In this document: positions 6,922 to 40,432 of the stretch, one piece after another
How positions within the stretch are numbered: the stretch's first letter is position 1
Layout: each line of letters opens with the position of its first letter
Assembly: GCA_002104985.1 (NCBI GenBank)
Contig: MCGO01000047.1
Location: forward strand, 124,001 to 188,000
Origin: Rhizoclosmatium globosum
Lineage: Eukaryota; Chytridiomycota; Chytridiomycetes; Chytridiales; Chytriomycetaceae
Direction: 5' to 3'
DNA length: 64,000 nt
The notes under the pieces: generated by a model
The model's input: the letters and a program-made list of their open reading frames with translations, nothing else
Told to the model about the DNA's origin: nothing
The model's database searches: none
Program-made: the position numbers and the translations under genes

Positions 6922-8949
6922 ATGCTTGCTGTCACACCACCGCTTTCTCCACTTCAACATAAGCTACCTATCGAAATCATCCAGCATATTTTCAGTTTGT
7001 TTCCACCATTGGAAGCACTGAAACAGTTGGTGCTGTGCAAGAGAATACGATGGTGCCTCCAAGACCAACACTTTGCCAAACTAAACTTACTCACTCACTT
7101 CCCACCTTCTGTATGCCTCAATAACCCGTCATTGCTATCAATACTGCGTACACTCTGGTTCTTGTTACCTTCTTCGTCTTATCAGTCAATGATAGCCAAA
7201 ACATATCTACTTATCTCTCTTGGGTCTGATCAGCCAACCAAACTCGACTGGTCATTCCAATGTCTATATGGACGTATTCCTTCCTCTATATCACTATTTT
7301 CTGGGATTTCGAGCTTGTCGTTGTCTGAAAACAATTTGCACGGTGCAGTTCCCATCCAACTCTTGTCTTTGGCACCTTCATTAGTGTCGTTGGATCTGAG
7401 CTACAACCGGCTGACATCCGGATGGGAATCAATCACGCAACTCATACATCTCACGAACCTCAATATGTCAGGAAACTTGCTTGAAGGGCTGTTACCATCT
7501 GAATTGGGAAACTTGAGCGCGTTAGAGCACCTTCTGCTTGCTGAAATGGGGTTGACCGGAACTGTGAAGTACTTCACAAGGGGTTCTTCTTGTTCATTAC
7601 CTAGGTTCAAAGACTTGGCAACGGGGCTTGTATTTATTCTTTTACGTTTTGTTATATTGTTATTTTATGTACTTTACTTATTTATTTGTTGTTATGGGGG
7701 ATCAGCGGTAAATCAGTAAAGATTGAAGTTGTCTATAATTGAAGTGCTGTGGCGAGCATAGAGAGTATATTCAAGGACCCTTCGACAGTCGCTGCGGGTG
7801 AGCGCTGTTGTCGACCATATTCACGCCAGGGAATCTCGTTGCGAGTTCTGAGCGATAGTGTTGAACAAGTAGCACAGGTACAATGGGCACAGGAAGAATC
7901 TCTAGTTAGGGGACCTGTGGGTTGTAGGTCTGGCCAAAAGTAACGTGGATAACGTCAATGGACCGTAAAGCGCTTAGGACCGGATAACGGCTTCTGGAAA
8001 TAACCGTGGTGACGTCGTTTAGTCAAAGGGGAGTTGTGCAGCCATGGATCAAGAGGTACAGCGGGGTGATCATGGTGCGACTCGACAGTTTATTATATTT
8101 GAGCGGAGGCAGGAACCTAGTTCCCCACGGATTGCTAAACCGAGCATGTATAATGACACGTTCTAACGTTTGGACTTGGTCGTTCGGAGCGTAGGAAAAG
8201 GAGCTATAGACCGTGTTGAGGTCATGCGGCACTAGTCCTAAAAGCGCTCTTCAGTGGGGTAAGTCGAGCAGCTACGAGGTGGAGTATTTCTTTATTAGTT
8301 GTGTTGTTTCTTTTATTGTTATTCTCTTTCCTGTTCTTTCCCTTCCCTTACTGTTAGTTCTACAATGCTCTAACGTGCTTAGGAACCGCACATTTCCCGC
8401 TCTGCAATTGGGGCCAATGGACCTGCAGGGTAGGATGGACATTACTTCCAAATCTATAACGATCAAGGTCTGTCGTCGTCCAGTCGATGGATCGAGACCA
8501 GTTAGAGGTTTCACAGAACGCTTCCCCGAGAGATTGGAAAACTAGAGAATCTCAAGACATTGGATTTGAAGAAGAATAGGATTTCGGGGAGTGTTCCGGT
8601 TGAATGGAGCGGAATGCGACAATTGAGGTACCTCTACCTACAATCAAACCTGTTGGAATTATGTCCGTTTGACGTAGTTGCAGAAGGATGCAAATATCTA
8701 CGCGTGTTGGACGTTAGTGACAATCAGTTGACAGGGCATGTTCCGTGGACAGCACTGTTACACAGTGGATCAATTTGGAGTCTATCCCTCGCGAGAAATC
8801 AGCTTGAGTTAGGAGAATTGTCTGCAGAAAGTATTTTACGGAAGCCAAGTAGTTGTTTGAATTGGTTAGACATATCTGGAAATTCATTCACGCTCTCCAA
8901 GCAAGACAGAACTCGATTTGAAAAGGAGCTGGAAAAGTTTATTTGTTGA
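6922..8949 (+). pseudogene. F-box-like/LRR gene interrupted by a solo-type LTR
   Basis: The N-terminus has an F-box-like helix (LPIEIIQHIFSLFPPLEALKQLVLC), followed by plant-type leucine-rich repeats with LxxNxLxGxVP cores. The frame breaks at 7563, where a 953-bp LTR begins, and LRR coding resumes at 8520 through the TGA at 8949. Removing the LTR and one 4-bp GAAC duplication leaves 1071 nt, exactly 357 codons, and the repeat consensus reads through the join (LTGT then LPREIGKLENL). So the insertion is the only visible lesion. Such F-box/LRR proteins may act as substrate adaptors of ubiquitin ligases; that role is inferred. As it stands the allele encodes a protein cut off shortly after the insertion, unless the LTR is spliced out. 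Confidence 0.85.
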
Positions 8950-9458
8950 AGATTGGTGCACGTATTGTAAATAATATGTTAATTGTTTAATTGAGAATAA
9001 CATCACACCGTCTGATGCATTCGTTTCACAGCATACCAAGTAATTAATACTTAGTAATATTAATCAGCGAGCAAAAGTGGGCGGCAATGAGGAACGAATT
9101 GTCGCCCGCTGGAGCGAGCTTTTTAGGTCATGTTTGAGTGTGTTTGGAACAATATAGAATGATAGCGGGCAAAACTCGAATTTTTTCTCCGTCATCATTT
9201 CAAAACTTTGCCACAACCGCCCTCACCCAATAGTCACCCCTTCCTGGAGAACTATGGCTTATTGGAAAGCTATGGAGCAGGAAAATCGTTTGAGTTTATT
9301 TAAAAATCGAAATAATGAAGATCATATGCTGTTCTGATCAATCGCAGATTCCAACTCATTGAATCAGCAATTAAAACGGAATCCCCCACGTTGGGCTCTG
9401 GGAGTACATGCTTGGAGAAAGATTATAAAAAAATAATGAAAGAAACTTATTCCGGTGG
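7561..9458 (+). repeat. 1.9-kb direct repeat, copy 1 (LTR + LRR 3' half + flank)
   Basis: From 7561 to 9458 the sequence matches 17778-19675 base for base in every line compared, with constant offset 10217. It holds the LTR, the LRR 3' half and about 510 bp of downstream flank. At 9458/9459 (GGTGG followed by TAATCC) the similarity stops abruptly, whereas copy 2 continues GGTGG then AACGG. Identity over non-mobile flank shows that this is a segmental duplication or two alleles joined, not just two LTRs. Confidence 0.9.
7563..8515 (+). mobile_element. LTR copy 1 (953 bp) inside the LRR gene, with target-site duplication
   Basis: The element begins TGTGAAG and ends TTTCACA, giving the inverted TG...CA termini of an LTR. 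The first 16 bases, TGTGAAGTACTTCACA, are themselves a perfect palindrome. Both ends are flanked by GAAC (7559-7562 and 8516-8519), a 4-bp target-site duplication. The interior is A/T-rich in its 5' third (TTATTTATTTG-like), consistent with U3. No internal retroelement sequence follows this copy: LRR coding resumes at once, as expected of a solo LTR. The copy at 17780-18732 looks identical. Confidence 0.85.
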
Positions 9459-9761
9459 TAATCCGCCATGGCTACGGATATTGTAGCTGGCCTGACAGGA
9501 TGTCACGCCTTTTTACTATTATGCGTTTAACGCTTTTGACCCACGTATAACGTGTATTTAACTTAAATGATGAAAAATTGAGTCCTGGGTATGGAAAACC
9601 CACTATCCTGTTCGGAACTTCAAGTTTCACAGAATTTCTTTATTCAAACCTCCGAAAATATATAAGATAAAATACTTCCTTAACGATTTACAGGCAGTTA
9701 TGTTTGGAGGAGTTGTATTGTCAGGATTCCGACAATTCATTCTTTTGAAGAAACAACAAAG
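9459..9761 (+). mobile_element. Retroelement 5' leader, truncated or displaced
   Basis: About 300 bp lie between the end of repeat copy 1 and the polyprotein ATG. In an intact element a tRNA primer-binding site would directly follow an LTR; here the preceding sequence is LRR-gene flank. A TGG at 9456-9458 sits at the junction, but I could not match it to a specific tRNA 3' end. I infer that the true 5' LTR/leader join has been lost. Confidence 0.5.
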
Positions 9762-12700
9762 ATGGCTACTACTACAGACCACCAAAAGGATTCCTACTTT
9801 GAGACACAGACTCTCAAATTAAACGCACATGGCATGAGAATCATTCTCGAAATGTACCAAAGAATCGCACGAGGTCCATTGGAAGAGAATGACAAGGAGT
9901 TCCTTCATGGGACGTTTATTAGCTACTGCAAATACAACTATCCTCAATTTTTGAGGGAAGTCTCCATCCGTCCGGACATATACCCCCAGGCCAATACTAT
10001 ACATCAACTTGTTGTAAAGCTGGGAAAAGATTACAACAAGCTCCATCCCGACTATCCTGTTGTCATTCCAGCAACATTGCCAAAACCATCGAAAACTAAA
10101 GCGCCAAAAGTTGTGCGTGGAAAGCAGCCGAAGTCAGCTGAAATTGTTATCGAAGACCCCCCAACTGATGAAACTCAACCCTCGGCTAATTCAGCTGATC
10201 TTACTGCGGATGTGGATTATACGGGACTCGAAGGAATGCTCGGAGAGACGTCGCTCTCGCGCGAGCCTATGGAAGTGGACGGGGATGATCTTGATTTGTC
10301 GGTTGATCCTGTCACTGCCAATACAGTCGATCCTGTCACTACTACAGCAGATCCTACCACTACAGCCACTACCGTGCCTTTGGAAACTCCTATTGTCGCT
10401 GGATCGTCTTCTTCGGAGCCTGTAGTCACCTGTCGCGAATCAGATTTGAACAGCGTCAACACCGAAGACTCACCTTCTGTTCTCGTTGAAATGGAGGTCG
10501 ATCAGGACGTCCCTCCACAATCCCCGAAGGGCAAGGCCGTCTTGAAATGCCAGGACGTCGACGTTCAGCCATTGGACGTGCCCGTTCCAGTGGTCACCGC
10601 TCCTGCTGCCGAACACAGTTCAGCCACTCCCCCCAATCCTGGTGCCTCATCCAGACCCGTCCCAGTATCGGAGGTCGACGAGATCGTCCCTATTCCGGCT
10701 GCGATCGTTGATGCCGTGAATGCCTCGTCGAAGTTCGGTGACTTTCTAAACAAGGTTTATACCTTAATTAGAAAAGAAAAAATCACCTACGCGGAACTAC
10801 AGGACAGCGAGCCCCGGATCAAGGAGAAGTTTCCTAACTTCAAAACGGACCTGACTCGGAAAACATTCGGTCGCCAAGTGTCTGTCAACGAGCCTCGCAA
10901 CACCTACCAGAACTCTGATCGCGAGTCTCGAAACCGCCCTTCGCCAAACCCTCCACGTCAGCGTAGTCGAAGCCCGGATACTTCACCCAAGAGACCTTGT
11001 CCAACCGATCGCCGTGCAAATCGCCAGGAGGCACGTCGGCAGTCGAACAATTTGACCACGTCGAGGATTGCCCAGATGGGCTACGACGCAAGTACGTATG
11101 ATCCCTATCATACTTTTATTGGCGGGTTAGTTGGGATAACAACTACCTTGCTGGCCTACTATTTAGTACGCCTTGTCCCAATGATAACGGGGTTTCTTAT
11201 GTTGATGGAATCAACTAAAACAACAAATATAATAGGAGTCACTTACCAGCACGACAAGGAATTCTGGGAAACCGTCAGACGTATCAGGTTGAGTAAGGCG
11301 GCTACCCCAGTTGGTTCGACGTACCAGGATATCAAGGACACAACCCTACGTCTCCTTCAGGAAAAACACGGGGAACACATTGTTCGGAGTGAAATGGGAC
11401 GCGAGAAAGCCGAACGAGAGCGTCAACGTGCGGAACACGAACGTTCGGAACGTGAATTCGAGGAGGAGTTGCGTCGTTTTGAGTCGGACCAGAGTTACCA
11501 TGGAAATAACGACCAATACGGAAGTGGATACAGTCATGGTGATCGTGACTACCGCAACACACGAGGAAGTACCTCCAGAGGAGGTCGAGGAGGTCGTGGA
11601 TCCTGGAACTCCGATCGTGGAAGTTCTAGTGGAGGTATGACACTCTATACAATGGAGGAACTATTAATGACGTCTAAAATCCAGCTCCTCCCACAATGGG
11701 ATACGGAGGCCGCGGAGACCGGCAGGAGTAGACTGTTCCTTCATTTCTTTAGTAGTGCGATTAGAAGTGACGGCTCTATCATGCAGTTCTTTAAGGACGA
11801 GCAACAGGAAATCCAGTATCTTGAAGAAAACTATTCGGACGTTGCTTGGAACAAATTGATTGTGTGTCTGCAAAACTTCAAAAAGCACTTGGGAATCAGT
11901 CACTATCGATGGACTCAACCTAAGTACGGATTGATGGAATATTTATCAATGATGGGAGTCGTGTATGATCACGAAGTTGTGTCAACTCCAATGGAGACGA
12001 CACCCTCCAAAGTTTCTGGATCTCGTTCGAGGAAAGCGGACTTCCTTGACGAAATAGACGTAGCGCTGGAACCCTTTACGTCCAGCAAACAGTCGTCACC
12101 AACAAAAAGTATGTTGGCAATTGCGAATCTGTCACCCGAGAAACAGAAAGCCCTTGCCCTTGACATCGCCAAAGGACAATTAATCGCGACCGTTAATAAT
12201 GAACCGGACGAGGAGGATACCTCAAGTACCGACGGACACAGTTCAGAAGACAACAGTCGTAATTCGAAAAGGAATTATTCTTCTAAGAAGCTTCCGCCGA
12301 AAGACAGCGACGACGACGACTCTTCGGATCCAGAATCTGGATCTGGTTCGTCCAACAACTCTTCGAGCAACAGTGATAATTTGTCGTCCGAATCGGAGGT
12401 CGTTCCTTTGAAAGGCCCTTCATCGCCCAGGAAAGCTGGTGGTATCTCTAAGAAAGAAGGTATTATCCGAACAGTGGCAAAATTGACTGACTCTAAGTCA
12501 TCTTATCAATTGGCTAATAACGCCTTTGTTTCTCTAATAGAATCGCAGAACGCTATGACACATAGCTTCAACGTCATGTCGAGCCAAAGTCTCATCAAAG
12601 GACTTCAGGAACAACAACCGCCATTAACGGACAAAGCATCGGCGCAAGTTTGGCTCGAAAAGGCGGAAATGGCGAAACGTATGCTCTCACATGTTTTCGT

Positions 12701-15700
12701 GGACGACAACGCATTTGTGAGAGGTTTCTTGAACGGGACAAAGTTTGACGGTTCGATTGGACGTCAAGTGCAACTGATATTGAGTCAAACAAAACCGGGA
12801 CTCAATCTTTGGAAGTCAATCAAGGATTTTCTCAAAAAGACTGCGGAGTCTCCATTTTCGGATGAGACCCGCAAGAATAACTTTATTAAGGACTTCAGAC
12901 TTAAAACTGTGAATGCTACCGAAATTGGCTGCGAAATTGATCTCGCCCATATTGTAATCTGGGCTATCAATTCATTTGATAGATGGATTTGGAATAGGCC
13001 AGTTACAATTGAAACAGACCACTCAGCTCTCTTACCTCTCTTCAAGAAGGGTGAGCTGACAGGGCGCTTTGCAAGATGGGCATATGCACTTGCAGACTAT
13101 GACATCACATTACACCATGTAGCAGGGAAAACTCAGTTTGTGGCTGATGCCCTTTCAAGAGTGAAACTCCATAACAAGGATACACTATCACCTCGGAGAG
13201 GTGATGCTCAAAAAAGTGGGACCGATGGTCAGGAGGTTGACCAAGATGATTCTGACACTGAGTCAGATATCTCAGCGGAAACAGCCAACACTGTCTTGAT
13301 GGAACACCCCCCACTCGAAACATTTTTAGATTGCTATATGTACGGACATCACAATCCAACGCCTGAAAAAGTAGTGTACGCTGGAAATAGGTTCAAGAAA
13401 CTTTATGAGTCTATGTTGAACAAAACTGAAATGAAGCAAGAAACAACCCATCAACTAATTACGGAGCTTTCAAAGCGCATGATGCGCCGGAAGAGTCGAG
13501 ACAAGACCATCCGTTCAGTTGATGACATCCGTACATCACTAAAACCTTTGGGAGGCATAAAATGCCCTTCAGTAAACATTTCGAATGAGAACTGTAATGG
13601 CCTGAGAAACTTGTTGAAGAAGCATAATGATAAGCATGGAATAAGTCCAGCATTTCATACGGTGGATAACATTGAACACTTTCTCAATCAAAGCAAGAGT
13701 AGTATTTGGTGTATACAGGAAACCAGAGTTGGTAAAGACGGCAAAAGTCAGAAACTTGTTGAATCGTTGAAGAACCTTCCAAATTGGAACTGTTCACTTA
13801 ACGATACACAAACGGGCTATGCAGGTGTTGCCATACTTTGGAGGAAGGAGTTGAATGGAAAGTTTGACTCTGAATTGGTTAAGACCGAAAAAGGTCCATC
13901 TGTTAACGAGGAAGATGAGGGTCGTATCTTGACTCTTAAACTAGCAGACTTTGCTTTTGTAACAACCTATGTTCCTAGTGGAATGCGCAAGTCAGAGCGC
14001 CATGAATATAAGATGCGCTTCCTGGATAAACTCAAGAAGTATTGTGACTCTCTGAGAGAGCGGCACTATGTTTTTGTCCTGGGTGACTTTAATATTGCAC
14101 CAACAGCAGAGGACTTACTCCCATTTGTAAAGGAGGAAGGCTTTGAAAACAGGTTCCCTTCATCTATAACACCAGAAGAACAACTTTGGTTCTTGAAGAT
14201 GACTGAGAACTTCACAGATGGATTTAGGACTAAACACCCCAAGGAAATGGGTGCCACTTGGTTACTCAAAGGACTGGATAAGAAGGAATACCCTTTCTGG
14301 AGAATCGATCATGTCTTGGTTGACAAGCGAATCAAAGAGGAAGACTTTGATGTGCGAGTGAATATGGACAAGAGCTTAAGTGATCACTTAAGACTGGAAC
14401 TCCATGTGAACTTACATAAGTATGGTTTTGCAGATATGCCAGATGAGACCACTTGGCTTGATCCCAAGGCAGAGAGCCCTTTCACCTATGAGTGTAATTA
14501 TAACCTTGAAACAATACCATTTGAAGGATATGATGTGGCTAGGATTAAGAAGTTGCAAGAAGGGGACGAGTTCTTTAGTGAAGTCCTATTCTTCATGAGG
14601 ACAGGTAAGACCCGCGAATCCAAGTTCAAAGGAATTGTGCGCACAGCCCAGTCCATGGTTCTTGATAAGAACGGATTGTTGTACCATGTTGCTGAACTTA
14701 CTTCTAAGACAGTGAGGCGACAACCAGGTCGTATAGCATTATGCATCCCTGATGGGATGAGACAGGAGATATTTGACCGTCACCATGCCGACCTTTATGG
14801 AGCACACTTGGGTTATTCGAAGATACTACCAACTTTGTTGGATAGATTTTGGTGGCCTTCAATAATTGAAGACTTTAAGTCATATTGTGAGGGTTGCGAG
14901 ACGTGTCAGAAGACAAAAGACCACCGACAGAGGAAAGGATATCTTCACCCGATACCCATAGGAAATTACCCCAATGAGCGTATGTTTGTTGACTTTGTGG
15001 GTCCTTTGAAAGAAGGCTCAGAGACAGGCTGTCAGTATGTCATGGTGTGTATTGATAGTTTTACAAAGTGGGTTGAAGCTGTTCCTATCCCTGACCTCAA
15101 GGCTGAGACTGTGATAAAGGCCTTAGTGACAGAAGTATTTGTTAGAACCGGAATACCTGTGTTCCTTCACACAGATGGAGGCGCACCTTTCAGTGATAAC
15201 TTGATTAAGTTGTTGTCAAAAGCCCTAGGTTTTGAAAAGACATTTACTGCACCCTATTGGCCACGAGCTAACGGTACAGTCGAAAGAGTTATTAAGACCT
15301 TGTCACAAGGAATAAGGGCTTATATCAATAAGTATGAGTTTGACGACTGGGACGAGATACTCCCTTTTGTCCTGTTTGCGTACAGAACGCATGTACATTC
15401 AACCACAGGTGAAACACCTTTTTACATGTGGCACGGAAGAGATGCAAGGCTGCCCACAGACTTGTTTTTTGGGGTCAGCCCTGATGACGAGTTATACCCG
15501 GATGAGTTGGATCTCCTGGATATAGCAGAAGTCAATAAGGAAACGATATGTAACGTTAACACTGAGTTGGAGGATTCTAGCTTTACACCTAGTCACAGTG
15601 TTAGTGATTGCAGACCAGTGGATTATGTTGAGGAAACCCACACATCATTTATGATGATGAAAGGAGAGCAACCCCAGTTCCCTCGAATTGCAGTTGCAAG

Positions 15701-17420
15701 GTTTTCCAACATGAAGCAGTTCAAGGATAAGTTATGTCTTAAGATACATGGTTATAAGAAAGATGTACCCTTTTGGCAAGTGCTAAAAGATGCCTATGAG
15801 ACTTTTGCTCTAGATGTGTTAGTCTTGGTGTTTGAACCCAGAGGCAAAGGAAATACTAAGGAGCATATACCGGGGTACTTCTTCTTGAAGGACGGGACCA
15901 GTGTTGATCTTAAGGGATCTTATCGTATTCGACCGGGACATACCCCTTACTTGGTTAAGTTAGATCGTTTCCCGGCACCTAGAGTAGTGTCTATTTATAG
16001 TAGACCAGGAATTGTTCACCCTGGACCTCCCCCAGAGTCGCTTGGTGACATATCAGAAATGGCTATTGGCCCTTACCTTTCACTGAAGATGGGATTACTT
16101 ACTTGTTCCTACCGTTCATTTGGAACTGAAGGTGCACGTCCTACAGATTGGAATAGTATCATTTTTGATCCGCGATTTGAGAAGATAATTATGCTTGAGG
16201 ATAAACCTGTATGGCAAGGGTCTGGAGACTTCAAGTTCCTCCGAGCGCCTTGTCTAGGAATTGACTTTGCATATCAGGACTTAACATATAAGACTGTCCT
16301 TAGTCCACAAGTGGATGACCAGAACTTTGACCTGGAGACATTCCTTGTTCAGGATAATGAGGAATATGCTGAAGAAACTAGTGAGGAAATAAGGAAACTT
16401 GTCCTCCAGAGGTTGAGAACTGGATTGAAGGCTGCCTATGATGTTGTGAAGGACAAAGTAATGCAAGCACAGAACAAGTTGAGAGCAGCATCCTTAGAGA
16501 AGGACAGAGCTCCATACAGTTTTGAGATAGGAGACAGAGCATGGCTAGCAGTACCTATTGAAGCTGAAGCTCAAAGACTGAAAGTAACGAAGAAGTTTGT
16601 CCCCAGGTGGGTAGGCCCTGTTAGGATCTATGACCGCTCAGGAGGGGATACAGAAACCCAATACACTATCATAGAGAATTTCCCTGGACGAGTAATTGTT
16701 GTCAGGAAAGTACATGTCAGTAGACTACGGCCCTTTACCCCGACAAGGCCTATTGATTCAGCAGCTAAGGCACTGAAGGACTCCAATGTTAGTTTTGAGG
16801 ATGAGATGCGCGAGTATATGAAATATACTATCACAAACCGCCGTCCGACGGATTCTTACCAGTCTCTTGATGAGACCCATGAGATGCTTCGTAAGAAGTT
16901 TGATCCAGAGTGGTCTGAGATTGATAGATCAGATCCACTTTATGTTATATCTAATGTGAAGAAGATTAAGTTTGAGAACCGTGCTTACTGGTATCTTGTG
17001 GAATGGCTACATCAGAACAAGTCCAGGAATACTAGTTGGCAACCACATGCAGGAATGCCTGAGGCTATCCTCAATGATGTTTGGGAAAATTCAGTTAAGA
17101 AGACAAACCCTGAGTATTATGAACTTTACCAGGACTGGCTGAATGGAGAATGGACACGTACCTCACCTATGCCGAAGCTACTTAAGATTGATGATAATCT
17201 TTTGTTGACACCGCAGATTGTGAAAGCTGCATTTGCTGGCACTAAGTCTACAAGGAAGAGGACTGTGACACAGAGCAAGACCAAGGAATCTGAAAGGAAG
17301 ACCAAGACTGTTCAACAGTCAGAGACTACTGTAACCTCCAAGGCTAGAGTCTCACCTAAAGTGAATACACCAGCAACGCAACATACTAGGACACTGAGAG
17401 AACGACCTACTGTAAAGTAA
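9762..17420 (+). CDS. Ty3/gypsy-type polyprotein: gag-like, RNase H, ExoIII-like nuclease, integrase, chromodomain; no RT
   Basis: One open frame of 2552 codons. Residues 1-1040 are gag-like and low complexity, with an RGG box near 601-625, a hydrophobic stretch near 450-485 that might be an unspliced intron, and no CCHC knuckle. An RNase H segment spans about 1052-1135 (VIWAINSF, TDHSAL, ADALSR). An ExoIII/APE-type nuclease spans about 1272-1545 with QET (E1320), TYVPS (Y1403), GDFN (D1442, N1444), RIDH (D1516) and SDH (D1541, H1542). Integrase follows: zinc site H1675, H1682, C1712, C1715; catalytic D1744, D1805, E1841, with 35 residues between the last two. After a ~350-residue insert come the GPY/F-like segment (about 2281) and a chromodomain-like module (about 2394-2440). 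Protease and reverse transcriptase are absent, so the copy cannot be autonomous as read. Confidence 0.85.
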   Translation: MATTTDHQKDSYFETQTLKLNAHGMRIILEMYQRIARGPLEENDKEFLHGTFISYCKYNYPQFLREVSIRPDIYPQANTIHQLVVKLGKDYNKLHPDYPVVIPATLPKPSKTKAPKVVRGKQPKSAEIVIEDPPTDETQPSANSADLTADVDYTGLEGMLGETSLSREPMEVDGDDLDLSVDPVTANTVDPVTTTADPTTTATTVPLETPIVAGSSSSEPVVTCRESDLNSVNTEDSPSVLVEMEVDQDVPPQSPKGKAVLKCQDVDVQPLDVPVPVVTAPAAEHSSATPPNPGASSRPVPVSEVDEIVPIPAAIVDAVNASSKFGDFLNKVYTLIRKEKITYAELQDSEPRIKEKFPNFKTDLTRKTFGRQVSVNEPRNTYQNSDRESRNRPSPNPPRQRSRSPDTSPKRPCPTDRRANRQEARRQSNNLTTSRIAQMGYDASTYDPYHTFIGGLVGITTTLLAYYLVRLVPMITGFLMLMESTKTTNIIGVTYQHDKEFWETVRRIRLSKAATPVGSTYQDIKDTTLRLLQEKHGEHIVRSEMGREKAERERQRAEHERSEREFEEELRRFESDQSYHGNNDQYGSGYSHGDRDYRNTRGSTSRGGRGGRGSWNSDRGSSSGGMTLYTMEELLMTSKIQLLPQWDTEAAETGRSRLFLHFFSSAIRSDGSIMQFFKDEQQEIQYLEENYSDVAWNKLIVCLQNFKKHLGISHYRWTQPKYGLMEYLSMMGVVYDHEVVSTPMETTPSKVSGSRSRKADFLDEIDVALEPFTSSKQSSPTKSMLAIANLSPEKQKALALDIAKGQLIATVNNEPDEEDTSSTDGHSSEDNSRNSKRNYSSKKLPPKDSDDDDSSDPESGSGSSNNSSSNSDNLSSESEVVPLKGPSSPRKAGGISKKEGIIRTVAKLTDSKSSYQLANNAFVSLIESQNAMTHSFNVMSSQSLIKGLQEQQPPLTDKASAQVWLEKAEMAKRMLSHVFVDDNAFVRGFLNGTKFDGSIGRQVQLILSQTKPGLNLWKSIKDFLKKTAESPFSDETRKNNFIKDFRLKTVNATEIGCEIDLAHIVIWAINSFDRWIWNRPVTIETDHSALLPLFKKGELTGRFARWAYALADYDITLHHVAGKTQFVADALSRVKLHNKDTLSPRRGDAQKSGTDGQEVDQDDSDTESDISAETANTVLMEHPPLETFLDCYMYGHHNPTPEKVVYAGNRFKKLYESMLNKTEMKQETTHQLITELSKRMMRRKSRDKTIRSVDDIRTSLKPLGGIKCPSVNISNENCNGLRNLLKKHNDKHGISPAFHTVDNIEHFLNQSKSSIWCIQETRVGKDGKSQKLVESLKNLPNWNCSLNDTQTGYAGVAILWRKELNGKFDSELVKTEKGPSVNEEDEGRILTLKLADFAFVTTYVPSGMRKSERHEYKMRFLDKLKKYCDSLRERHYVFVLGDFNIAPTAEDLLPFVKEEGFENRFPSSITPEEQLWFLKMTENFTDGFRTKHPKEMGATWLLKGLDKKEYPFWRIDHVLVDKRIKEEDFDVRVNMDKSLSDHLRLELHVNLHKYGFADMPDETTWLDPKAESPFTYECNYNLETIPFEGYDVARIKKLQEGDEFFSEVLFFMRTGKTRESKFKGIVRTAQSMVLDKNGLLYHVAELTSKTVRRQPGRIALCIPDGMRQEIFDRHHADLYGAHLGYSKILPTLLDRFWWPSIIEDFKSYCEGCETCQKTKDHRQRKGYLHPIPIGNYPNERMFVDFVGPLKEGSETGCQYVMVCIDSFTKWVEAVPIPDLKAETVIKALVTEVFVRTGIPVFLHTDGGAPFSDNLIKLLSKALGFEKTFTAPYWPRANGTVERVIKTLSQGIRAYINKYEFDDWDEILPFVLFAYRTHVHSTTGETPFYMWHGRDARLPTDLFFGVSPDDELYPDELDLLDIAEVNKETICNVNTELEDSSFTPSHSVSDCRPVDYVEETHTSFMMMKGEQPQFPRIAVARFSNMKQFKDKLCLKIHGYKKDVPFWQVLKDAYETFALDVLVLVFEPRGKGNTKEHIPGYFFLKDGTSVDLKGSYRIRPGHTPYLVKLDRFPAPRVVSIYSRPGIVHPGPPPESLGDISEMAIGPYLSLKMGLLTCSYRSFGTEGARPTDWNSIIFDPRFEKIIMLEDKPVWQGSGDFKFLRAPCLGIDFAYQDLTYKTVLSPQVDDQNFDLETFLVQDNEEYAEETSEEIRKLVLQRLRTGLKAAYDVVKDKVMQAQNKLRAASLEKDRAPYSFEIGDRAWLAVPIEAEAQRLKVTKKFVPRWVGPVRIYDRSGGDTETQYTIIENFPGRVIVVRKVHVSRLRPFTPTRPIDSAAKALKDSNVSFEDEMREYMKYTITNRRPTDSYQSLDETHEMLRKKFDPEWSEIDRSDPLYVISNVKKIKFENRAYWYLVEWLHQNKSRNTSWQPHAGMPEAILNDVWENSVKKTNPEYYELYQDWLNGEWTRTSPMPKLLKIDDNLLLTPQIVKAAFAGTKSTRKRTVTQSKTKESERKTKTVQQSETTVTSKARVSPKVNTPATQHTRTLRERPTVK

Positions 17421-17779: not shown

Positions 17780-18732
17780 TGTGAAGTACTTCACAAGGGG
17801 TTCTTCTTGTTCATTACCTAGGTTCAAAGACTTGGCAACGGGGCTTGTATTTATTCTTTTACGTTTTGTTATATTGTTATTTTATGTACTTTACTTATTT
17901 ATTTGTTGTTATGGGGGATCAGCGGTAAATCAGTAAAGATTGAAGTTGTCTATAATTGAAGTGCTGTGGCGAGCATAGAGAGTATATTCAAGGACCCTTC
18001 GACAGTCGCTGCGGGTGAGCGCTGTTGTCGACCATATTCACGCCAGGGAATCTCGTTGCGAGTTCTGAGCGATAGTGTTGAACAAGTAGCACAGGTACAA
18101 TGGGCACAGGAAGAATCTCTAGTTAGGGGACCTGTGGGTTGTAGGTCTGGCCAAAAGTAACGTGGATAACGTCAATGGACCGTAAAGCGCTTAGGACCGG
18201 ATAACGGCTTCTGGAAATAACCGTGGTGACGTCGTTTAGTCAAAGGGGAGTTGTGCAGCCATGGATCAAGAGGTACAGCGGGGTGATCATGGTGCGACTC
18301 GACAGTTTATTATATTTGAGCGGAGGCAGGAACCTAGTTCCCCACGGATTGCTAAACCGAGCATGTATAATGACACGTTCTAACGTTTGGACTTGGTCGT
18401 TCGGAGCGTAGGAAAAGGAGCTATAGACCGTGTTGAGGTCATGCGGCACTAGTCCTAAAAGCGCTCTTCAGTGGGGTAAGTCGAGCAGCTACGAGGTGGA
18501 GTATTTCTTTATTAGTTGTGTTGTTTCTTTTATTGTTATTCTCTTTCCTGTTCTTTCCCTTCCCTTACTGTTAGTTCTACAATGCTCTAACGTGCTTAGG
18601 AACCGCACATTTCCCGCTCTGCAATTGGGGCCAATGGACCTGCAGGGTAGGATGGACATTACTTCCAAATCTATAACGATCAAGGTCTGTCGTCGTCCAG
18701 TCGATGGATCGAGACCAGTTAGAGGTTTCACA
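17780..18732 (+). mobile_element. LTR copy 2 (953 bp), 3' LTR of the retroelement
   Basis: It has the same TGTGAAG...TTTCACA ends as copy 1 and no difference was noticed. On the left it is joined to retroelement sequence and on the right to GAAC plus the LRR 3' half, as a 3' LTR at the same LRR target site should be. Confidence 0.85.
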
Positions 18733-19166
18733 GAACGCTTCCCCGAGAGATTGGAAAACTAGAGAATCTCAAGACATTGGATTTGAAGAAGAATAGGATT
18801 TCGGGGAGTGTTCCGGTTGAATGGAGCGGAATGCGACAATTGAGGTACCTCTACCTACAATCAAACCTGTTGGAATTATGTCCGTTTGACGTAGTTGCAG
18901 AAGGATGCAAATATCTACGCGTGTTGGACGTTAGTGACAATCAGTTGACAGGGCATGTTCCGTGGACAGCACTGTTACACAGTGGATCAATTTGGAGTCT
19001 ATCCCTCGCGAGAAATCAGCTTGAGTTAGGAGAATTGTCTGCAGAAAGTATTTTACGGAAGCCAAGTAGTTGTTTGAATTGGTTAGACATATCTGGAAAT
19101 TCATTCACGCTCTCCAAGCAAGACAGAACTCGATTTGAAAAGGAGCTGGAAAAGTTTATTTGTTGA
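18733..19166 (+). pseudogene. Second copy of the LRR gene 3' half
   Basis: After the GAAC target-site duplication the LRR coding of 8520-8949 is repeated to the same TGA. There is no 5' half upstream, because retroelement and LTR sequence precede it, so it cannot make the full protein. It is the 3' side of the same insertion site. Confidence 0.85.
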
Positions 19167-19675
19167 AGATTGGTGCACGTATTGTAAATAATATGTTAAT
19201 TGTTTAATTGAGAATAACATCACACCGTCTGATGCATTCGTTTCACAGCATACCAAGTAATTAATACTTAGTAATATTAATCAGCGAGCAAAAGTGGGCG
19301 GCAATGAGGAACGAATTGTCGCCCGCTGGAGCGAGCTTTTTAGGTCATGTTTGAGTGTGTTTGGAACAATATAGAATGATAGCGGGCAAAACTCGAATTT
19401 TTTCTCCGTCATCATTTCAAAACTTTGCCACAACCGCCCTCACCCAATAGTCACCCCTTCCTGGAGAACTATGGCTTATTGGAAAGCTATGGAGCAGGAA
19501 AATCGTTTGAGTTTATTTAAAAATCGAAATAATGAAGATCATATGCTGTTCTGATCAATCGCAGATTCCAACTCATTGAATCAGCAATTAAAACGGAATC
19601 CCCCACGTTGGGCTCTGGGAGTACATGCTTGGAGAAAGATTATAAAAAAATAATGAAAGAAACTTATTCCGGTGG

Positions 19676-32159: not shown

Positions 32160-32495
32160 TTCAAGCTCACTGTATGAGGCAAGTATTCTTGCTCCCCTTC
32201 ACCTACTCTCTCGCGTTCGCCAATATGCTCGGGCCACCTCATTGACTCCTGGCGGCGCCTCTGTGTAGTATCCTGAGCTACATATGACCGTCTTATATCG
32301 GAAGAGGGTCAACGGAATAGCTTTTCTAGTGGAGCCAAAGTAAACTATTGGATGGATTGCGCTTGGTGCGAAAGCGGCCGGGCCTTTCTGTTGGTGCTGT
32401 TGATTAACCCCTCATGAGCATTTCCCACACTCACTTCATCTGACAAGCTCTTTTCGTTCGTTGATACTAACACTTGATTTCTTTTTCTTAATAGG
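32160..32495 (+). repeat. Tandem duplication, unit 1 (381-bp period)
   Basis: It starts TCAAGCTCACTGTATGAGG and ends with a textbook intron 3' end: TGATACTAACACTTG (perfect TACTAAC branch site), a pyrimidine run and AATAG. It recurs 381 bp downstream with about 95% identity by eye. It seems to include an exon end (SLYEASILAPLHLLSR) plus a following intron. Confidence 0.8.
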
Positions 32496-32540
32496 CTCTT
32501 CCAACCACGCGTCTCTTTTTCTGCTGTCTACGTCGCCGCT

Positions 32541-32868
32541 TTCAAGTTCACTGTATGAGGCAAGTATTCTTGCTCCCCTTCACCTACTCTCTCGCGTTCG
32601 CCAATATGCTCGGGCCACCTCATTGACTCCTGGCGGCGCCTCTGTGTAGTATCCTGAGCTACATATGACCGTCTTATATCGGAAGAGGGTCAACGGAATA
32701 GCTTCTCTAGTGGAGCCAAAGTGAACTATTGGATGGATCGAGCCTGGTGCGAAGAGCGCCGGGCCTTTCTGTTGGTGCTGTTGATTAGCCCCTCATGAGC
32801 ATTTCCCACACTGACTTCATATGACAAGCTCTTTTCGTTCGTTGATACTAACACTTGATTTCTAATAG
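32541..32868 (+). repeat. Tandem duplication, unit 2
   Basis: It repeats unit 1 with scattered substitutions (for example CTTTTCTAG to CTTCTCTAG) and a shortened pyrimidine run before AATAG. The TACTAAC branch site is kept. Confidence 0.8.
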
Positions 32869-39148: not shown

Positions 39149-40432
39149 ATGCACACTTCATTCAAAGCCTCCCGCCCAGGCCTTCCACTTCTCCTTGTAA
39201 GGCCCTCCTCCTTTTATGCTCCACCACAAGCACAACCCCAAGCAGCTGTGACTAAACAGACGCCATCGCAGGCGGCGCCGGGCTCAATTGGACACGTTGC
39301 CTCGCTCGCCGTCGATGTGATTGCCGCGAACTCGGTCGTTGAGGCAACACGTGTCGCTGCCTCGGCCTTTGTGAAGCCGCTTGTTTGCTGCGATGCCGCC
39401 TCGCTTTCGCTGAAAACTAAGTTGGATGCCGCGATCCAGATTGCTGAAACAAAAGACGCTGTGGTGCTGCTCTTTCGATCGCAGGTCTTTGAGGTGACTG
39501 ACGCTCTTGGTTACTACATTAATAATACGCTTTATTAATTGGCGAGACCGGGTGCAGGGCCATCAACGAAAGTTTGCAGATGAATTGGTTGCGTGGATCA
39601 AGGAAAACCAGTTCTCGTCCGTTGTTTTACTCTCTTCTTTTGATGCTTTCAAACGCACGGATGCCCAGATTCAGTCTGACTCTTTGTTGCGTTTTCTTTC
39701 TACTCCAGCTCCACTAGAGTCTCCATTCGCTCAACAGTGCTCAAGTACCCTCAATTGGATTCAACTCGAACAATTCAAAAGAGACGAGGAAATGAAGGAT
39801 GGTCGCCAGTTTCCTATTGATGGGGGATTGACCGATGCTCTTTGGTCGCGTCTTGTCGAGTACTCTATCCCGACTCTCCTAGTTTCCATGTTTGTCCCCG
39901 AAGATGGATGTATGTGTTTTATCTGCGAGTAGTGCGAAGTGCATTGATTAGTGAGGTTACGAGTGGAGTTCTGTTGTTACCACGTGAATCTAGTTAGTTA
40001 CTGGACTTAAGTGAGCGCCAGCGAACAAACTGTCATGAAGCGAACGAGTGGTACGAAGCGAATTGTCGAGTGAGTTCATGAGCGTAGCTCTGTTCTCTTC
40101 AGGCGAATCCAGTTATTTAGTGCGCTTTAGTGAGCGCCAGCGAACAAACTGTCATGAAGCGAACGAGTGGTACGAAGCGAATTGTCGAGTGAGTTCATGA
40201 GCGGAGCTCAGTTCTCTTCAGGCGAATCCAGTTGTTTATTGCGCGTTAGTGAGCGCCAGCGAACAAACTGTCGTGAAGAAAACGCCGGAGTGATAAATAC
40301 ACTGACACTTTAAAATACACAGTCCACTTTCAGCAAGCCATGTACCTTGCCAAGTCAGTAAACCAATTGGTCAACTTTGGAAAGTCTGGTAACTTAATTC
40401 TTTTGTTATTCCCGGAGATCACTGTTGACTGA
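39149..40432 (+). CDS. PSMG2: Proteasome assembly chaperone 2, 268 aa, three exons
   Basis: PSMG2 (PAC2) pairs with PAC1 to build the proteasome alpha ring. Exons 39149-39493, 39558-39909 and 40323-40432 join in frame to 268 residues, close to the family's usual length. Landmarks are GSIGHVASLAVDVIAA (the family's VGNVGQLAVDLI region), AVVLLFRSQVFEG, FADELVAWIKENQFSSVVLLSS and FKRTDAQ. The last exon, QQAMYLAKSVNQLVNF, forms the C-terminal helix. The second intron is 413 nt and almost filled by tandem repeats, against 64 nt for the first. A diverged copy of the last exon and 3' flank lies at 51583-51834. Confidence 0.85.
39910..40322 (+). repeat. 413-nt PSMG2 intron carrying 119-bp tandem repeats
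   Basis: The unit GTGAGCGCCAGCGAACAAAC... starts at 40011, 40130 and 40249, an exact 119-bp period, with a partial earlier copy from about 39961. Units contain GAAGCGAACGAGTGG and TACGAAGCGAATTG. Similarity between the central units is nearly complete. The motif GTGAGCGCCAGCGAA recurs in the JMJD7 intron. Confidence 0.85.

Follow-up and report, generated by a model that had tools for sequence, protein, structure and literature searches.

LTR retrotransposons are usually considered to be sufficiently equipped with protease, reverse transcriptase (RT), RNase H (RH) and integrase (IN). The extras that some of them have captured (dUTPase, a second RNase H, a chromodomain) have revealed which steps limit these elements. 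In lentiviruses, a dUTPase is found between RNase H and integrase, and the extra RNase H of Tat-like elements is located between gRH and IN. LINEs are devoid of both LTRs and integrase. We know of no Ty3/gypsy element that harbours an ExoIII/APE domain, although a published or Repbase description may exist. In a fungal survey (PMC3248453), the word 'exonuclease' occurs 0 times. Two other reports describe dUTPase domains at varying Pol positions in the Ty3 elements of Postia placenta (PosPlaTy3; PMC2864245) and a second RNase H in the Tat, Archon and Chronos elements of the Ty3/gypsy type (PMC5348765).

We analysed a stretch of 64,000 nucleotides of the chytrid Rhizoclosmatium globosum (called the window), which contains a copy of an LTR retrotransposon with such an additional domain, and its relatives in the same genome. 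These elements share with Ty3/gypsy elements (Metaviridae, Ty3 type) the LTRs, a 4-bp target duplication (10 of 12 loci), the RT-RH-IN order, the match to Ty3 RT, the H2C2 zinc finger and, in several lineages, the rve integrase core. They differ from them by an extra ExoIII/APE domain in Pol, found at two positions, by the 15.2-kb length of the copy at locus C114 and by an insert of ~340 residues behind the integrase core (three lineages aligned). An Exo_endo_phos domain together with an RT is also present in LINEs with an APE-type endonuclease, but the nuclease described here is closer to ExoIII/APE1. Unlike the AP endonucleases of the ExoIII/APE1 (xth) family, it is a domain of a retroelement polyprotein and not a free repair enzyme. 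The dUTPase-carrying PosPlaTy3 elements similarly have a captured enzyme that safeguards nucleic-acid quality, with a variable place in Pol (PMC2864245), and Tat, Archon and Chronos elements similarly gained a nuclease domain, in their case an archaeal-type RNase H (PMC5348765). However, dUTPase cleans the nucleotide pool, whereas the nuclease of the present elements would act on DNA.

The element copy in the window

The features of the window copy are as follows.

6922..7562, + strand: 5' part of a leucine-rich-repeat (LRR) host gene interrupted by the element (ORF 6922-7719 enters the LTR)
7559..7562, no strand: target site duplication GAAC, left
7563..8515, + strand: 5' LTR, TGTGAAG...TTTCACA
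8516..9458, + strand: second copy of a 943-bp stretch of host flank (dispersed repeat and 3' LRR part), identical to 18733-19675
9762..17420, + strand: single open frame of 2552 aa with a Gag-like part, an RNase H remnant, the ExoIII/APE nuclease and integrase
12953..12954, + strand: deletion junction, with ~4.3 kb gone relative to C114 (zinc knuckle, RT and most of RNase H)
12954..13100, + strand: C-terminal half of RNase H (RT_RNaseH 57-105; Pfam)
13560..14414, + strand: ExoIII/APE1-type endonuclease/exonuclease/phosphatase (EEP) domain
14745..14921, + strand: integrase zinc-binding domain H2C2 (Pfam)
14970..15260, + strand: integrase core, rve (Pfam; D-D-E by eye)
15465..16556, + strand: insert of ~340 aa that separates the integrase core from the C-terminal module, kept in three aligned lineages
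17780..18732, + strand: 3' LTR
18733..18736, no strand: target site duplication GAAC, right

Pfam analyses confirmed the initial annotation of a whole EEP nuclease between RNase H and integrase in one frame (13560-14414 in frame 9762-17420). The losses of the window copy were determined by reference to the copy at locus C114, which is 15.16 kb long and has LTRs that are 100% identical. In addition to the large deletion listed above, the window copy lacks ~550 bp at 11764. Its interior begins at 9459, 104 bp past the position that corresponds to the end of the C114 LTR, as the copy of the 943-bp flank has taken the place of the initial ~104 bp of interior sequence together with the primer site. 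The window copy is defective, having lost RT, the primer site and the bulk of RNase H, and is incapable of autonomous replication.

The GAAC-flanked insertion hits an exon of the LRR gene, which appears by eye to be F-box-like and whose reading resumes past the right target duplication, i.e. across the empty site (also by eye). The host flank found behind both LTRs (8516-9458 and 18733-19675, 100% identical) is the result of a rearrangement or an assembly error. Since the duplication comprises LTR and flank in a single identical block, the identity of the window LTRs need not date the insertion. We rejected the 1898-bp repeat as the LTR of this element, since the LTR of other copies is ~955 bp long.

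The insert at 15465-16556 is conserved in lineages A1, A2 and A3, with 27-36% identity to the window. It has no Pfam match, and its predicted structure is poor (pLDDT 51.5). Further downstream, the region ~16932-17090 is chromodomain-like to the eye; a Pfam search at E 1 gave no match. Outside the element, the window contains local tandem duplications at 32160-32863 (97% identical) and 39926-40278 (87% identical).

Two layouts of nuclease-bearing elements

We searched the genome of R. globosum (56.9 Mb, 420 contigs) for related loci. Matches to chitin synthase (41 rows) and IFT46 (5 rows) mark this genome as that of a flagellated fungus. The search with the nuclease domain returned 51 rows with identities from 100 down to 28%, and many of them sit in open frames of 1000-3900 aa. 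The rows of searches with four families (RVT_1, RT_RNaseH_2, Exo_endo_phos and Integrase_H2C2), plus 2 rows from the nuclease-domain search, were clustered into an inventory of loci. It omits 14 of the 132 RT rows and 4 of the 66 RH rows, which score low or are second fragments, and its counts are lower bounds. The nuclease is found before the integrase at no fewer than 41 loci, including the window (33 RT-RH-EEP-IN, 5 RH-EEP-IN and 3 EEP-IN). At least 7 other loci have it at the beginning of pol, upstream of RT (4 EEP-RT-RH-IN and 3 EEP-RH-IN). This second layout and the absence of RT from the window copy both go beyond the initial annotation. The same genome contains at least 11 RT-RH-IN loci without the nuclease domain and at least 18 LINE-like EEP-RT loci. 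An EEP-RT-RH cluster on C338 consists of a LINE-like pair joined to a separate RT-RH fragment ~3 kb off, and the nuclease-free C384 locus is a deletion derivative: compared with the closely related C62, it lacks 1167 bp that contain the domain.

According to Pfam, RT, RH, nuclease and IN follow each other in one frame in C114, C130, C43, C13, C397 and C383:219k, and in C113 the same order spans two adjacent fetched pieces of one frame. The nuclease-RT-RH-IN order is present in one frame in C368, C383:75k and C146, the RVT_1 domain of C146 being under its cut-off (17 bits). In all ten lineages scanned, the nuclease is fused in frame inside Pol. It occupies the interval between RNase H and integrase in most lineages, including that of the window, and the N-terminus of Pol in the others.

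The integrase zinc finger H2C2 was found in every full frame scanned, for both layouts, and the seven nuclease-first loci also carry it. The rve core is above its cut-off in the window, C114, C130, C113, C43 and C383:75k and below it in C146; Pfam did not find it in C13, C397 (where the piece ends), C383:219k or C368. By lineage, A1, A2, A3, A4 and B2 pass, B3 is below the cut-off, and rve was not found by Pfam in A5, A5b (where the piece ends), A6 and B1. The D-D-E residues of integrase can be read by eye in B1, B2 and B3.

The nuclease-first gypsy elements with LTRs are located at C383:73544-83068, C368:90809-101585 and C146:332100-342830. Those of C383 and C146 have a separate large Gag-like frame before pol, which in C383 is split into two neighbouring pieces (680 and 261 aa) and matches DUF4100, and in C146 is 917 aa long. 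The C368 element contains an inverted duplication (C368:91141-92820) that covers part of the nuclease.

The initial annotation had considered the domain as a possible accident if no other element carried it, but 33 further RT-RH-EEP-IN loci are present in the same genome. A one-off captured exon or a misassembly is ruled out by the many copies in diverged lineages. Similarly, a LINE nested in a gypsy element is ruled out by the xth kind of the domain, its in-frame fusion and the integrase behind it. As judged from their sequences, the nuclease-bearing elements are a multi-lineage Ty3/gypsy group, of which the window holds a defective member.

The nuclease belongs to the ExoIII/APE1 family

The complete ExoIII/APE1 catalytic set (N, E, Y, D-x-N, D and D-H) is present in the window nuclease, including all the catalytic residues named in the initial annotation (E1320, Y1403, D1442, N1444, D1516, D1541 and H1542). 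Its xth family score is 121 bits, against a curated cut-off of 99, in agreement with the ExoIII/APE-type assignment proposed initially. The nucleases of 9 of the 10 lineages exceed this cut-off (107-136 bits). That of B2, whose first motifs are altered, is below it with 68 bits, no better than the LINE endonuclease of C380 (71 bits); the other LINE endonuclease of this genome that was scored reached 42 bits. An alignment of the 10 lineages with E. coli ExoIII has 20 invariant columns, and the catalytic columns, which are among them, are unchanged in all 10 lineages and in ExoIII, with the nuclease of some lineages being only ~20% identical to that of the window.

The nearest folds include Mth0212 (a DNA uridine endonuclease by its title, 3w2x/3w2y), ExoA and APE1, and in the structural alignment the element nuclease is 24-27% identical to solved ExoIII/APE1 enzymes. 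A profile of the element domains and E. coli ExoIII scored 150-236 bits against solved ExoIII/APE1 structures, the top score for 1ako being obtained by construction as the profile contains E. coli ExoIII, and ~65 bits against LINE-1 endonucleases; a search free of this bias likewise put the element nuclease nearer to ExoIII/APE1. By these comparisons, the element nuclease is assigned to the ExoIII/APE1 (xth) family and not to the LINE kind. A competent-looking ExoIII-type active site is kept in Pol, and activity is predicted.

Element class and integration

The RT-RH region of C114 has Ty3 RT as its best solved match (4ol8; 291 bits, E 1.4e-85), and so does that of the nuclease-first C368 (111 bits, E 5.2e-31), with one element representing each layout. 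Together with the LTR pairs and the integrase, these matches bear out the Ty3/gypsy context given to the polyprotein in the initial annotation. LTR pairs are present in 12 of 16 loci (window, C114, C401, C43, C113, C384, C13, C397, C68, C368, C383:75k and C146). The LTRs begin with TG and end with CA, and the two members of a pair are 98.9-100% identical, eight of the 12 pairs being at 100%. No LTR pair was found in C130, C62, C87 and C383:219k, the last three of which were fetched as 4.5-10 kb only. A 4-bp target duplication (GAAC in the window) flanks the elements in all loci with LTR pairs except C43 and C146, where none was seen. In the frames scanned, Pfam gave no match to an aspartic protease; D-S/T-G in a protease-like setting was seen by eye in A2 and A5b only. 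The presence of LTRs and integrase sets the elements apart from the LINE arrangement, in which the nuclease is N-terminal to RT and both LTRs and integrase are missing. Given the near-identical LTR pairs and the 4-bp duplications, their integration looks like that of ordinary gypsy elements. Several of the elements moved recently.

In the manner of LINE APE-type endonucleases, the nuclease might prime or guide insertion by nicks in the chromosomal target, for instance at abasic sites. The superfamily is shared with those enzymes, and the best structural matches cut double-stranded DNA (by their titles and general knowledge). However, both layouts have an integrase, with H2C2 in every full frame scanned and rve or D-D-E by eye in several, 10 of the 12 LTR-paired loci have target duplications of 4 bp, and the domain is of the ExoIII/APE1 and not the LINE kind. 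A role in target nicking is thus very unlikely.

Constraint on the nuclease and its possible role

Between lineages, the predicted nuclease is shown to be under constraint. Its dN is 0.31-0.67 over nine pairs, for which synonymous sites are saturated (pS 0.74 or more). The A1/A2 pair has 61% identity in the nuclease, 64% in RT-RH, 63% in integrase and 31% in the linker between RNase H and the nuclease. In all 8 further pairs, it is clearly less conserved than RT-RH (37-54% vs 58-66%; for instance 39% vs 59% for A3/A4 and 37% vs 66% for B1/B2), and thus it is under less constraint than the core enzymes. In addition, the 11 RT-RH-IN loci devoid of the domain, one of which arose by deletion within a nuclease-bearing family, indicate that gypsy elements can manage without the nuclease.

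Host genes are known to be captured by retroelements, and the nuclease could in principle act on the host, countering its defence or aiding fungal growth, rather than on the cDNA of the element. The in-frame fusion inside Pol in every lineage scanned and the divergence of the nuclease along with the element make such a role most improbable. Another possibility is that the nuclease is an accessory to integrase or to the finishing of the plus strand, which would take off the primer RNA (tRNA or polypurine), trim the 3' ends of the LTRs or process the single-strand gaps at integration joints. ExoIII-family enzymes possess RNase H and 3'-trimming activities. The nuclease directly precedes integrase in 41 of 48 loci, and we noticed by eye a primer-site-like TGG... 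past the LTR in C113, C384, C68 and C397, as well as runs rich in purines upstream of the 3' LTR. Nevertheless, it is ahead of RT in 7 of the 48 loci, the elements already own RNase H and integrase, and other gypsies of the same genome lack the domain; we therefore regard this accessory function as unlikely.

The best reading of the nuclease may be a role in cDNA maintenance, by analogy with captured dUTPases, and we are evenly divided between belief and doubt about it. The nuclease would be an active Mg-dependent AP endonuclease, 3'-phosphodiesterase and 3'-5' exonuclease, packaged together with RT and integrase, and its substrate would be the cDNA of the element rather than target DNA. It would cut this cDNA at abasic sites and clear its blocked or mismatched 3' ends, and leftover RNA primers might also be removed. 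From the cleaned cDNA, plus-strand synthesis could finish, and integrase would receive clean 3' LTR ends. In function, the nuclease would thus correspond, on the side of repair, to the dUTPases that some retroviruses and fungal Ty3 elements have captured. The sequence data suggest that the elements come with an enzyme of their own that removes damaged or blocked ends from their DNA copies. Somewhat more tentatively, these elements might represent an old group of LTR retrotransposons with a DNA-repair arm of its own, in which the ExoIII/APE domain, at either of its two positions, would run a base-excision-like repair of cDNA in the particle, with abasic or uracil sites perhaps as its normal substrate. 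If true, the conservation of an AP endonuclease would point to cDNA damage as a limit on LTR retrotransposons.

Origin of the nuclease

We compared in a tree the 10 element domains with 26 other ExoIII-family sequences, namely 24 bacterial or archaeal loci of 72, the viral-contig locus L119 and E. coli ExoIII. Four long rows of the outgroup (two LINE and two other EEP) were excluded. All 10 element nucleases are on one side of a branch and the 26 others on the other side, with a support of 91/95 that is not strong, in a tree that contains no eukaryotic APE1; the element domains thus stand apart as far as this sampling goes. The initial annotation had named a captured host gene as one of several options. 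Because the 10 element domains fall together, apart from the 26 others, a host-gene origin fits an old capture and not a recent one-off event.

The nuclease tree splits the element domains into A1-A4 (100/100) and A5/A6/B (100/98). The same two groups appear in the RT tree, where the three nuclease-first elements group together (99/96). In contrast with the RT tree, the nuclease of C146 is outside the rest of the second group (97/88). The simplest reading of these sequence relationships would be one capture, after which the domain changed its place inside A5/A6/B. Alternatively, there may have been two independent captures, one in A1-A4 and one in A5/A6/B, with a later change of position in the second. 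The RT tree with all rows places three nuclease-free gypsies on the A1-A4 side, and each nuclease group is well supported, the branch that joins them having only 91/95. Yet, a single clade of nuclease-bearing RTs is not rejected (p-AU 0.283 with 15 rows, the deletion derivative C384b being left out), omission of the two longest rows (B3 and C388) recovers it at 100/99, and the nuclease tree keeps all 10 domains on one side. Two captures are thus conceivable but rather doubtful.

We also looked for close relatives of the element nuclease in the host. The EEP gene L024 was rejected as CCR4-like. L039-L042 were rejected because, although they pass the general Exo_endo_phos cut-off, they do not match the nuclease profile at E 1e-3. 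No host APE1 was found with the E. coli ExoIII query at E 1, a search that an intron-split gene could escape. This query returned 38 rows, of which 37 are at inventoried element loci; the remaining one, next to C368, lies in the inverted duplication inside the C368 element. In IMG/VR, two queries each for the nuclease and the RT gave nothing, or only group-II-intron-like RT. The viral-contig locus included in the nuclease tree (L119:5989-8823, IMGVR_UViG_3300029705_005665) codes for a protein of 944 aa in which an ExoIII domain at the N-terminus (xth 248 bits) is fused to RVT_N, RVT_1 and group II intron maturase domains, i.e. a group-II-intron-type RT with an ExoIII arm.
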